Positions 901 to 5,869 of a DNA stretch of 42,284 nt are shown here, in pieces. Source of the DNA: Candidatus Gottesmanbacteria bacterium (GTDB lineage: Bacteria; Patescibacteriota; Microgenomatia; UBA10105). Both the position numbers and the translations under genes were made by a program. The DNA is taken from positions 1 to 42,284 of the forward strand of contig JAHFKJ010000012.1 in NCBI GenBank assembly GCA_023245415.1. Direction: 5' to 3'. How positions within the stretch are numbered: the first letter of the stretch is position 1; the number at the start of each line of letters is the position of its first letter. The notes below the pieces were generated by a model. It was not told where the DNA came from, did no database searches, and saw only the letters and a list, made by a program, of their open reading frames with translations.

Positions 901-2349
901 TTAGGCTAGTAAATCATGAATCTTATAGGATATTATAAGATCTCCAGTTTTAAAGTCAAGCTGTTTATCAAATAATATACCGCACACCGTTCCAGCCTCT
1001 GCTTTGGGAATATCTTCTTTTTTAAATTTAAGGGATTTAATTTTAGTCCGTCCTAACTCCAACTGTTTTCGCATCAACATAATTAGGTCACCCCGAACAA
1101 TCCGACCGCTTTTCACTTTACAGCCGGCGATTTTGATATCTCCCGATTGAAATTCGGCTAAAATCTCTGCTTCGCCTAAAACGTCTTCGCGTGATGTGGG
1201 GCTATTTAGAAGCTCTGTCACTTCTCTAATCTCATCAAGAAGTGTATAGATTATTGTGTATGTTTTAACTTTTACGTGCTCGATTTGTATAAGTTTCTTA
1301 ACTCCATTACTGACTTTGACATTAAAACCTATAATTAGCGCCCCCACCGATTTAGCAGTTAAAACATCAGATTCACTTACCGCACCAGTTTCTGCGAGCA
1401 CTAAATCAACTGTTTCTGCCAATTTTTCTATTATCGCGCCCAGAGATCCCGCTACATCGGCTTTGAGAATGACTTTTAATTTTTTTTGTGCGGTAATCGG
1501 AATCAACCCGATCTGTTTCTCTTCAATATGCTCTATTGCAGAATTTATTTTCGCATCTTGCGAATAAACGGTAGAACCTATCGCAGGCAACTTATCCCAT
1601 CCCATGATTTCTACAGGCTGTCCGGCGACAACGGATTGTACATGTTTTCCCAAATCACTAATCATCGCGCGGATTTTGGCCTGACTCTGATACGTATATA
1701 GGTTTTGACCAATCATTAACTTAGGAGCAGTGCAAATCACAGTTGCCAGTATCCCAATGTGTTTGTCTAACCGTGCTTCAATCACCACGCCTAACTCTTG
1801 AGGTTCATTTTTACGTAAGCCCTTAAGCTCTGTGACTAACAGTATCATCTCCAAAAGTTGGGCAATCCCTTTACCAGTTTTTGCAGATACTGGGAGCAAA
1901 ACAATATCTCCACCGAACCCTTCTACTAAAACTTCATGTTTTGCTAGCTGTTGCTTTATTGTCTCGGGATCTGCATTCGGCAGATCTATTTTATTCATTA
2001 CGACTATAAATGGAATCCCGGCCTTTTTAATCAGGTTAATTGACTCAATGGTTTGCGGCATAACTCCATCTACTGCTGAAACAACCAGAAGCGCAATATC
2101 GGCAACTTCAGATCCGAGTGATCGCATTTTGGCAAAGATTTCATGACCTGGAGTATCTATAAATGTAATTTTTGCGCCCTCTGGAGATGTAATCTGATAT
2201 GCACCGATATGCTGGGTAATTCCGCCGTGTTCTGTTAAAGCTGTCTGAGATTTGCGTATCGAATCTAAAAGTGTAGTCTTACCATGATCCACGTGCCCTA
2301 GTACTGCTACAATGGGTGGCCGTATAAGTGTTGTGTTTAACTTGATCAT
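901..2349 (-). CDS. infB: Translation initiation factor IF-2, short form
   Basis: IF-2 is the GTPase that places initiator fMet-tRNA on the 30S subunit and promotes subunit joining. The G domain begins almost at the N-terminus: P-loop GHVDHGKT at residues 18-25, then DTPGHE (G3), NKID (G4) and SAKTGKG (G5). Domains II, III and the C-terminal fMet-tRNA-binding domain follow. At 482 aa it is much shorter than typical bacterial IF-2 (700-900 aa) because the long, variable N-terminal region is missing, as often seen in reduced genomes. It starts 38 nt after the nusA stop and ends 12 nt before the DHH gene, so it is probably the second gene of the nusA operon. All catalytic G motifs are intact. 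Confidence 0.97.
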   Translation of the reverse strand: MIKLNTTLIRPPIVAVLGHVDHGKTTLLDSIRKSQTALTEHGGITQHIGAYQITSPEGAKITFIDTPGHEIFAKMRSLGSEVADIALLVVSAVDGVMPQTIESINLIKKAGIPFIVVMNKIDLPNADPETIKQQLAKHEVLVEGFGGDIVLLPVSAKTGKGIAQLLEMILLVTELKGLRKNEPQELGVVIEARLDKHIGILATVICTAPKLMIGQNLYTYQSQAKIRAMISDLGKHVQSVVAGQPVEIMGWDKLPAIGSTVYSQDAKINSAIEHIEEKQIGLIPITAQKKLKVILKADVAGSLGAIIEKLAETVDLVLAETGAVSESDVLTAKSVGALIIGFNVKVSNGVKKLIQIEHVKVKTYTIIYTLLDEIREVTELLNSPTSREDVLGEAEILAEFQSGDIKIAGCKVKSGRIVRGDLIMLMRKQLELGRTKIKSLKFKKEDIPKAEAGTVCGILFDKQLDFKTGDLIISYKIHDLLA

Positions 2350-2387: not shown

Positions 2388-3167
2388 TCACTTCGGATTT
2401 GGTATATTTTCTGGATGAACTATATCACTTGCAAGCGGAGTGTCTGCATGATCTGTTTGAGGTGGAGATATAGGCGTCGAAGAAATATCAGTCTCGGTGA
2501 TTTTTGGAACTTCACTCGATGCATTTGTATCCACATCTTTTGGGGAAGTTGTGATTACAGCTTTTGATGAATTTAACTCAGTTATTTGTGGCTTACCCTT
2601 ACTTTTCAGATCCAGTTTCCATCCCGTTAGTCGGGCGGCTAAACGCACATTTTGGCCCTCACGACCAATCGCGAGTGACAGTTGATCATCCGGAACAAGC
2701 ACCTCTGCTGAGTGCGTCTTATCATTGAGTGTGACTTGTAAGTCTTTAGCAGGTGATAATGCAGCAATAATAAACGTTTTAGCATCATCACTCCATTGTA
2801 TGATATCTATCCGTTCCTCGCCTCCAAGTTCTGATATCACAGCTTGAACCCGTACACCCTTCTGACCTACACACGATCCAACCGGATCAACCCCTGCTTG
2901 CGTCGAAAAGACGGCGACTTTTGAACGGCTTCCAGGTTCACGGGCGACATCTTTAATTTCGACTGCCTGTTGCGATACTTCAGGCACTTCTCTTTTAAAT
3001 AGTCCTGAAACTAAATTTTTGTGTGCCCGAGAAACAATAATTTCATTTCCCCGATAAGTTTCTCGTACTCCTTCTATATAAAATGAGAGGCGCTGATTGA
3101 GCCGATACCGTTCATTAGGAACTTGTTCGTTGGGCGGCATCACCGCTTGTGCTGCCAATATCCACAA
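2388..3167 (-). CDS. nusA: NusA, C-terminal part (S1 remainder, KH1, KH2) after a frameshift
   Basis: This frame encodes the rest of NusA. The second half of the S1 domain (AVMPPNEQVPNERYRLNQRL) is followed by KH1 (DPVGSCVGQKGVRVQAV) and KH2 (LSLAIGREGQNVRLAARLTG), then a Ser/Pro/Thr-rich acidic tail. NusA binds RNA polymerase and nascent RNA and controls pausing, intrinsic termination and antitermination. The listed TTG start at 3167 is not a real start: it lies inside the S1 domain, where homologues read VDLGxxEAVLPP. Frame 0 supplies VDIG and this frame supplies AAQAVMPP, so the two ORFs overlap by 53 nt and together make one gene. Sequence on both sides is well conserved, which points to a very recent lesion, an assembly error or a programmed shift. 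Confidence 0.9.
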   Translation of the reverse strand: MWILAAQAVMPPNEQVPNERYRLNQRLSFYIEGVRETYRGNEIIVSRAHKNLVSGLFKREVPEVSQQAVEIKDVAREPGSRSKVAVFSTQAGVDPVGSCVGQKGVRVQAVISELGGEERIDIIQWSDDAKTFIIAALSPAKDLQVTLNDKTHSAEVLVPDDQLSLAIGREGQNVRLAARLTGWKLDLKSKGKPQITELNSSKAVITTSPKDVDTNASSEVPKITETDISSTPISPPQTDHADTPLASDIVHPENIPNPK

Positions 3168-3540
3168 TTATATTAGCCCCATCAAACCGCAAAATCATTC
3201 CTGAAACAATCGAACCTATCTTGGCTGAATAATCTGATAAAATTGCTTGTTTTTCAGCTTCACGAATGCGCTGCAATATAACCTGTTTAGCGGTTTGCGC
3301 AGCGATTCTTCCAAATCCCGGCGGGGTCACATCTTTGTCATCCTGAAAGATTTTAGCTTCACCGTTATCCGAGTTAAGTTGAACTTCCAGCTTTTCTAAA
3401 TCCGTAGTTCCGTAATCTTTACGGTAGGCAGCCATAATTGCGGCTTTGATAGTCTCCAAAACAACTTGGGGGTCAATACCCCGTTCCGTGGCTACTTGAT
3501 TTAAGGCTAGAGCAAATTCACTTCTGACAATTGCCGGCAT
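3115..3540 (-). CDS. nusA: NusA, N-terminal part (RNAP-binding domain and start of S1)
   Basis: This ORF starts MPAIVRSEFALALNQVATERG and covers the NusA N-terminal RNA-polymerase-binding domain (about residues 1-100), including an AIMAAYRKDYG segment typical of the family. It enters the S1 domain at IGSIVSGMILRFDGANIIVDIG, then runs out of frame into a non-homologous tail (STSGDAAQRTSS) and stops. The continuation is in the other minus frame at 2388-3167; the junction is near position 3156. As drawn, a ribosome that did not shift would make only a 141-aa fragment without KH domains. The start codon is ATG at 3540, 37 nt after the predicted transcription start, in a leader holding a terminator-like hairpin. 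Confidence 0.9.
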   Translation of the reverse strand: MPAIVRSEFALALNQVATERGIDPQVVLETIKAAIMAAYRKDYGTTDLEKLEVQLNSDNGEAKIFQDDKDVTPPGFGRIAAQTAKQVILQRIREAEKQAILSDYSAKIGSIVSGMILRFDGANIIVDIGSTSGDAAQRTSS

Positions 3541-3544
3541 AATT

Positions 3545-3571
3545 TAATAAAAAAGGCGGGATTTTCCCACC
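3545..3571 (-). terminator. Intrinsic-terminator-like hairpin in the nusA leader
   Basis: On the minus strand GGTGGGA / TCCCGCC forms a 7-bp stem (one G-U pair) with a 3-nt AAA loop, immediately followed by TTTTTTATT. That is the textbook shape of a rho-independent terminator. It sits between the predicted nusA promoter and the nusA ATG, so it cannot end an upstream gene transcribed on this strand and is better placed as an attenuator. NusA stimulates hairpin-dependent termination, so autogenous control is plausible. The hairpin begins only ~6 nt after the predicted start site, which is unusually early. Confidence 0.6.
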
Positions 3572-3583
3572 TCTTATTTTCTT

Positions 3584-3611
3584 ATTATACCACTAAAACG
3601 ACTACCGTCAA
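3584..3611 (-). promoter_or_regulatory. Promoter of the nusA-infB operon
   Basis: On the minus strand TTGACG (3611-3606) and TATAAT (3589-3584) are separated by 16 nt, a near-consensus sigma-70-type pair. The predicted transcription start is near 3577, giving a leader of about 37 nt before the nusA ATG at 3540. It lies in the divergent gap between nusA and the HtrA-like gene. Confidence 0.75.
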
Positions 3612-3673: not shown

Positions 3674-5869
3674 ATGGAAACGACTGTTCAACCGCAATAT
3701 GTAATGAAGAAGAAAAGTCCCCCGATATTGGTGATAGTAATATTACTATTGCTGTTTTTGTTGGGCGTTGGGGGGATAGCGTATACGTACTTTATAACGC
3801 CTGAACGGATATCATCAAAAAATATTTCTCATATTTCTGAATTTAATCCGGATGACCCGTTTTTTCAGCAGGCAGCACTTGCTGATTCAAATTCAATAGA
3901 ACAACATTATGTGTCTAATAAACTTAATATCGCATTCGACTATAACGGAGCCAAGTGGCAATTATCTCAATTGCCTCTCAACATAACACTGATCAACAAA
4001 TCAAAACAGGTGAACGCAACCGGTTTGGCTTATGAAACTATCGTTGTATCACGATTTACACCAAAAAATTTTGAATCCTCAGATCTTATTGCTGCCCAAA
4101 AATACTATGAGACCAATATTAAAATTGAAATTCAAAATCATAAACAAATCAAATTTATTAAAACATATACCACGCATATTGGAGGAAAAGATGTTTTTGT
4201 GAGTGATTACTCATATACAGATTATGCAGGAAATTTTGTGTATACAAAGGATTATTTTTGGATTTACCTTGGACAAGGCATTCGCCTACTCTATTCAATA
4301 CCCGGTAATATATCAACATCAAACGAGGAAATAGAAAGAATACTTGCGTCAATTATTTCTGCCGATTCAATTCCTGTCGTTCCACCAAAAGTAAAAGGCG
4401 TATCGACTTCACAGGATGAGGGTGAGCGCATGGTGATTGAGAACAAATCAGCAGTAGTTAGAATATTCAAACGCGTCTGCGGAGAGCTGAGCAACATCAA
4501 ACTTCCATTTCCAAGCATGAATGGTAAAAAATACAAATATTGTTCTGCCGGATGGGGTAGCGGATTTTTTGTAAATCACGAAGGATATATTGCTACAAAT
4601 GGCCATGTCGCCATAATCACCAAGGAAGATGCTGTATTTGACTCAATTTATAGCGGATTTTCATACGATTTTTTGAAAGATTTACTGCGTGATACATTGC
4701 GTGTGAAATTAACTCAGGAATTGGGATCATCGGCAAAGAATATTCCCGACTCCACATTGGATCAATTTATTGATGAGTTTGTCAAAGATAAAGTAATTTC
4801 AAATCCTGATGCTTTAACTACAATCGCAGCCGGAGCAGTCGAGGACATCAAAGCGGGTAGTTTATCTGCCCAAAATCTCTCTGACGAGACTTTTATTCAA
4901 AATTCCCAAGATCCTATTCTTATAAACGATAAAGATTGGAGTGTCAAAAATCCAGAGCGCTTTCTCAAAGCCGAACTCGTAGGTTTTGACTACGAATCAA
5001 GGTTAACAGCAAAAAATGTTGATAAATTTAGTACATCAGACGTCGCGCTTCTAAAAGTTAAAGCAAGTGAATATCCATCGGTAACTCTGGGTGAATCAAC
5101 AAATTTAGAGCTGGGAACACCCATTTATGTCATAGGCTATCCCGGAGTAAGTACCGATATTTCACTTCTTGATGATTCTTCAAAAGTACAACAGACCATC
5201 ACAAAAGGAATCGTAAGTGCTTTCAAAGAAGCAGCAGGAGATAAGAAAAAATTAATTCAAATTGACGCTTCAATTGCAGGCGGCAATAGCGGCGGCCCGG
5301 CTTTTACCAAAGAAGGTAAAGTTATCGGTATTGCTACGTATAAAGTTTTAACGGAGTCAGCTGACTTCAATTTTTTACGCGATATAGCAGACCTTAAAAC
5401 ACTTATGCAAAAGTATACAGTAACTAATACTGCTGGTCCAGTAACCTTATTCTGGAAAGAAGGTTTGGATAATTTTGCCAAAAAATATTATAAACGCGCC
5501 ATCGTTAATTTTAAAGAAGTTCAAAAGTTATATGCAGTACACCCTGATGTAAGTAAATTTATTGAACAGTCAAATACTAAAATAGCTCAGGGTGAAGATG
5601 TTACACCAATCTTTACGCTTCTTAACCATGATTATGGTAAATTTGAAGCTACTGTGATGGAAGTTTCCATTGGCATGATGTTTATTTCCGGTGTTTTACT
5701 CGTTTTAGTTATTATTCGCTCAAAAAGAAAACACAATCTCTGGGGTCCAGGATCTACGTATACCAATCCTTCTCCAAATATACCTATTCCAACTTCATAT
5801 ATTCCTCCCGTTCCACCGATTAACCCACCAATAAATGAGTCTAACTTACCTTCACCGCAACCGTTATAA
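3674..5869 (+). CDS. Membrane-anchored HtrA-like trypsin-type serine protease
   Basis: The 731-aa protein has an N-terminal membrane segment (about residues 15-37), a ~200-residue extracytoplasmic region, and an S1C-type protease domain. The catalytic triad is His311 in ATNGHVAII, Asp456 in TSDVALLKV and Ser539 in GGNSGGPAF. About 145 residues separate His and Asp, far more than in DegP/HtrA, so a large insertion sits in the protease fold. A TPR-like helical stretch (FWKEGLDNFAKKYYKRAIVNF) follows instead of a recognisable PDZ domain. A second membrane segment near residue 670 and a proline-rich C-terminal tail end the protein. It probably degrades or senses misfolded exported proteins. It is divergent from nusA and convergent with the dnaK/dnaJ heat-shock operon. 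Confidence 0.85.
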   Translation: METTVQPQYVMKKKSPPILVIVILLLLFLLGVGGIAYTYFITPERISSKNISHISEFNPDDPFFQQAALADSNSIEQHYVSNKLNIAFDYNGAKWQLSQLPLNITLINKSKQVNATGLAYETIVVSRFTPKNFESSDLIAAQKYYETNIKIEIQNHKQIKFIKTYTTHIGGKDVFVSDYSYTDYAGNFVYTKDYFWIYLGQGIRLLYSIPGNISTSNEEIERILASIISADSIPVVPPKVKGVSTSQDEGERMVIENKSAVVRIFKRVCGELSNIKLPFPSMNGKKYKYCSAGWGSGFFVNHEGYIATNGHVAIITKEDAVFDSIYSGFSYDFLKDLLRDTLRVKLTQELGSSAKNIPDSTLDQFIDEFVKDKVISNPDALTTIAAGAVEDIKAGSLSAQNLSDETFIQNSQDPILINDKDWSVKNPERFLKAELVGFDYESRLTAKNVDKFSTSDVALLKVKASEYPSVTLGESTNLELGTPIYVIGYPGVSTDISLLDDSSKVQQTITKGIVSAFKEAAGDKKKLIQIDASIAGGNSGGPAFTKEGKVIGIATYKVLTESADFNFLRDIADLKTLMQKYTVTNTAGPVTLFWKEGLDNFAKKYYKRAIVNFKEVQKLYAVHPDVSKFIEQSNTKIAQGEDVTPIFTLLNHDYGKFEATVMEVSIGMMFISGVLLVLVIIRSKRKHNLWGPGSTYTNPSPNIPIPTSYIPPVPPINPPINESNLPSPQPL

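Follow-up and report, generated by a model that had tools for sequence, protein, structure and literature searches.

A compact terminator hairpin of the rimP-leader kind ahead of nusA in Patescibacteria, a probable NusA feedback attenuator where RimP was not found

Background

What could a terminator-like hairpin do directly downstream of a promoter and just ahead of nusA, when no gene precedes it on the same strand? This question is raised by a contig of 42,284 nt from a Candidatus Gottesmanbacteria genome (GCA_023245415.1), the whole of which was analysed and is called the window here. The host genome is a 1.55-Mb Patescibacteria assembly, 96% complete; the window belongs to the Microgenomates, and its nearest named relatives are the Gottesmanbacteria.

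An attenuator ahead of this operon has been described in other bacteria. Naville and Gautheret (2010) reported the rimP-leader, a terminator with a highly conserved GGGc..gCCC that is present in no other terminator. They termed it the most ubiquitous attenuator and proposed NusA, perhaps RimP, as the regulator; in their view the conserved GGG/CCC points to specific recognition (PMC2965389). Old genetics cited in the same paper indicate that E. coli NusA represses its own operon. In B. subtilis, NusA stimulates termination in the nusA leader and so regulates its own gene, as stated in PMC12288461 with reference to earlier work. The B. subtilis leader is reported to measure about 180 nt and to lie ahead of ylxS/rimP (PMC2965389).

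Results

In the window, nusA is the first gene of its operon on the minus strand, with no rimP ahead of it. Its N-terminal part (3115..3540) carries NusA_N (Pfam PF08529), and its C-terminal part (2388..3167) lies in another frame and carries KH_5 and a weak KH_NusA_C in the domain search. The same search identified infB (IF-2) as the second gene of the operon (901..2349, minus strand). The two nusA frames overlap at 3115-3167, and the window is 2 bases short of its nearest relative near codon 129. The frameshift is probably an assembly error, because no second good nusA was found in the genome, where only a 23% partial match was present. No gene lies upstream on the minus strand; the neighbour, a trypsin-like peptidase gene identified by domain search (3674..5869, plus strand), is divergent, and therefore there is no gene for the leader hairpin to terminate.

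The promoter consists of a -35 hexamer TTGACG (3606..3611, minus strand) and, after a spacer of 16 nt, an extended -10 element (3584..3592), in which TG (3592-3591) stands one base before TATAAT (3589..3584). With 11/12 matches it is the best site within 5 kb in the promoter scan. From the -10 spacing, transcription is predicted to start at about 3577, which leaves a 5-nt 5' end (3573..3577) ahead of the core stem. The hairpin itself, AGGTGGGA-AAA-TCCCGCCT (3554..3572, minus strand), has its arms at 3572..3565 and 3561..3554. Its stem comprises 8 pairs including one U-G, and G-U and A-U pairs can lengthen it (3573..3553). A T-run, TTTTTT (3554..3549), follows as the U-tract, and the nusA ATG (3540..3538) begins 13 nt behind the terminator. 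The predicted RNA from the start site to the end of the T-run is thus about 29 nt long, and the start site lies about 40 nt from the ATG.

The fold of the leader RNA has -15.2 kcal/mol and z = -4.53, and none of 200 shuffles was equally stable. This shows that the leader hairpin is real and not a chance structure. It scored 43.4 bits (E 6.8e-8) against a covariance model whose training set included this hairpin. The U-G of the stem is a standard pair on the minus strand only, and the plus-strand reading of the hairpin is weaker. A generic terminator scan did not report the nusA leader hairpin, probably because its stem runs into the T-run. These results bear out an earlier note on this DNA, which had described a near-consensus TTGACG-N16-TATAAT promoter, a terminator-like hairpin with a T-run between it and nusA, a 7-bp stem, an RNA of about 30 nt and no same-strand gene upstream.

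The note had also proposed conservation in related genomes as a check. In 151 nusA leaders, mostly from the Microgenomates class but partly from elsewhere in the phylum, a hairpin+T detector was positive in 98; the opposite strand gave 21 and shuffled sequences 10. Typically the hairpin follows the promoter after about 25 nt (quartiles 21-30), and the T-run and the ATG come next; the distance from hairpin to ATG is mostly 8-46 nt, with longer exceptions up to 153 nt. The common stem in the class is GGTGGG/CCC[A/G]CC, and 69 of the 70 leaders with the GGTGGG stem keep the T-run behind it (5-8 T among the next 8 bases). Paired positions change together: the base preceding GG pairs as A-U, U-A or C-G, and the U of GGU has A or G as its partner, with C-G in place of this pair in some lineages. 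Compensatory changes filled 29 double-change cells, versus 9.6 in shuffles and no more than 9 with slid partners. Across families the stem varies little in sequence and strength. Wholly different stems occupy the same place in family f8, and other stems occur in f22, f31, f10 and f15. In Paceibacteria-like genomes, which belong to another class, 16 of 20 leaders have a hairpin with a different stem, in four of them more than 130 nt away.

Of the open frames upstream of the leaders, 48 share the strand of nusA and 43 are on the opposite one. The hairpin is present in both settings, so the element is independent of the upstream gene. In the spacer between start site and hairpin no conserved motif or antiterminator was found, only weak enrichments.

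Some relatives have additional features between hairpin and ATG. In families f1 and f2 (L085, L089-L092, L095, L098) the interval holds about 100 nt of additional structured sequence. This consists of an ACCCGCC..GGCGGGT hairpin, which resembles a dispersed palindromic repeat, and a covarying hairpin AGAGRCC..GGAYACTA, which abuts the ATG. The stretch had no good Rfam match and is absent from the window. Short word repeats (e. g. ACTTAATAC, GCTATACGCTA) occupy the same interval in L142, L146, L159, L173 and L214, from several families.

The element is specific to nusA. The pattern GGTGGG-N3-10-CCCRCC-T5 occurred in 31 of 40 class genomes (about 44 Mb), in one place each, which the nusA coordinates of the same genomes identified as the nusA leader in every case. 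As the 40 genomes were hand-picked, the share 31/40 is biased as a frequency, which does not affect the specificity. A reversed control pattern had no match in these 40 genomes. In the covariance-model search of the phylum, the non-nusA matches in other classes all stayed below 30 bits; they are probably chance terminators.

The hairpin also stands out within its own genome. Among 64 divergent leaders examined in 326 kb, with genes taken from crude open-frame calls, three had a hairpin with a T-run: the nusA hairpin, its opposite-strand palindrome and a further palindrome that is AT-rich. The nusA hairpin was the third strongest of 27 hairpin+T sites in these 326 kb, which hold few strong intrinsic terminators, gene ends included. 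The sole other GGTGGG..CCCRCC match in the genome (L087, G000 C28:13624-13646) fails the pattern that requires a T-run; judged by eye, it lies near a REP-associated transposase-like gene. The RNA-binding domain of Rho was not found in the genome of the window and is present in 47 of 59 class genomes.

Several families lack the hairpin, namely f7 (0/13), f17 (1/18), f38 and f42, and it was also missing from the named Roizmanbacteria and Levybacteria nusA loci. In hairpin-less families nusA looks mostly leaderless, with the whole leader gone, because in most cases only a few bases separate the end of a TATAAT-like box from the ATG. At f7 and f17 nusA starts such as L151, L172, L129 and L137, this distance is about 5-11 nt.

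Outside the phylum (Firmicutes, Chloroflexi, Omnitrophota, Planctomycetes and others), 37 of 55 nusA loci had a terminator hairpin before rimP or nusA, in a sample (L020-L081) that is biased, as the loci were found by NusA similarity. The hairpin is usually (A)GTGGG..CCCAC(T). Of 32 of these other-phyla genomes, 22 contained AGTGGG..CCCACT followed by T, and 20 of these had nusA beside a motif locus.

RimP_N was not found in any of 76 class genomes or 96 phylum genomes, and control genomes were positive. This argues that RimP is probably not the regulator and favours NusA, because the element persists in a phylum where RimP was not found.

Discussion

Position, U-tract, covariation, specificity for nusA and depth of conservation strongly support a putative attenuator in the nusA leader, and the hairpin is very probably a functional terminator. 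The following sequence of events can be proposed. RNA polymerase would start near 3577 and make an RNA of about 29 nt, which would fold as the GGUGGG/CCCGCC hairpin. At the U-run, the polymerase would either release the RNA or read through into nusA-infB. NusA, by aiding hairpin folding and pausing, would tip the balance towards release when abundant, and the nusA-infB operon would thereby be under negative feedback. Use of the promoter and termination in the cell are both presumed in this scheme.

For feedback by NusA through the leader terminator we estimate a probability of about 0.7. NusA as the sensor is suggested by the B. subtilis case as given in PMC12288461, by the E. coli genetics cited in PMC2965389 and by the persistence of the element without RimP. 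The conditional behaviour is argued from the NusA analogy, because the search of the leaders turned up neither a conserved antiterminator nor an upstream motif. Thus, of the autoregulatory attenuator that the earlier note had envisaged, the leader attenuator stands on the features of the leader and its relatives, and NusA sensing is the best reading by analogy; its statement that B. subtilis nusA is under NusA-dependent leader termination agrees with PMC12288461. Some observations count against NusA feedback. NusA-dependent sites tend to be suboptimal, and the terminator of the window, with -13 kcal/mol and an unbroken U6, is not obviously weak. Furthermore, f7 and f17 appear to live without the hairpin, and nusA is frameshifted in the assembly.

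The hairpin could instead be a fixed partial terminator that keeps nusA-infB transcription constantly low and senses nothing. The similar stem sequence and strength across families and the lack of an antiterminator or second conserved motif would fit this. Yet a weaker promoter would achieve the same, and the conservation before nusA across phyla, together with the NusA control reported for B. subtilis in PMC12288461, points to feedback, so that we consider a fixed terminator unlikely. It is improbable that the hairpin senses another factor, such as RimP, NusG, a ribosomal protein or IF2. IF2 is encoded in the operon, and the GGG/CCC conservation has been taken to suggest specific recognition (PMC2965389); however, free replacement of the stem in f8 and in the Paceibacteria-like genomes disfavours a sequence-specific reader, and RimP in particular was not found in the 76 class and 96 phylum genomes searched, yet the element is kept. 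Its place right at the start of the predicted mRNA would also suit a stabilising hairpin or a processing signal, but mRNA stability needs no T-run, and the near-invariant T-run behind the GGTGGG stem makes this very improbable. An ordinary end-of-gene terminator or insulator that stands before nusA by happenstance, for which the same-strand open frames upstream in 48 relatives could speak, is rejected on specificity and position, as no second copy of the motif was found in any of the 31 positive class genomes. Moreover, the predicted nusA promoter precedes the hairpin, which is kept where the neighbour is divergent, as in the window.

With NusA feedback as the preferred reading, the leader bears on the choice between RimP and NusA as the reader, which Naville and Gautheret left open: a single-copy element kept without RimP argues for NusA. 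From gene content, a RimP-sensing model would be hard to keep in this phylum, and NusA sensing fits. Possibly, though we give this somewhat less than even odds, the terminator hairpin of the nusA operon is an ancient control element, present once per genome in nearly all bacteria, that senses NusA, with the Patescibacteria as a natural rimP knock-out that reveals this and the leaderless f7 and f17 as lineages that lost the feedback altogether. The retention of the element suggests that NusA feedback control is kept even in strongly reduced genomes; the earlier note had spoken of a minimal genome, and at 1.55 Mb the assembly is reduced rather than minimal. With about 40 nt from start site to ATG, the leader offers a compact natural NusA attenuator for in vitro work.

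Judged by its sequence features, the element is an attenuator of the rimP-leader kind, which has already been described (PMC2965389), standing before nusA without rimP. The novelty that the earlier note had expected does not extend to the kind, but the rimP-less, very compact form in Patescibacteria is new as far as the literature searched shows; an extension of the rimP-leader to Patescibacteria without rimP was not found there. Rfam had no match for the window or for related leaders. The gammaproteobacterial rimP leader, RF01770, matched neither the window nor its relatives above the gathering score, and the E. coli control matched with 102 bits. RF01770 resembles the element of the window in its 3' hairpin, a GGGC/GCCC terminator, and differs in its tandem structure, in which a further terminator lies upstream.

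The rimP-leader is located in the 5' UTR of rimP-nusA-infB, and the element of the window lies in the leader of nusA-infB in a genome where RimP_N was not found. Unlike the rimP-leader, it stands directly before nusA, its leader is very short, with the core hairpin about 5 nt past the predicted start, and the stem of its group is GGTGGG/CCC[A/G]CC instead of the published GGGc/gCCC. It shares the general form given in PMC2965389, a short hairpin with GGG in the 5' arm, CCC in the 3' arm and a T-stretch. In both cases there is no larger conserved element, and the motif is specific to the leader of the nusA/infB operon. In the published cases, 4-130 nt separate the terminator from the operon's first gene, and the distance of 13 nt in the window falls within this range. 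In B. subtilis NusA dependence was measured, according to PMC12288461, whereas in the window we infer it. Both leaders have in common an intrinsic terminator in the 5' leader and NusA autoregulation as the proposed logic.
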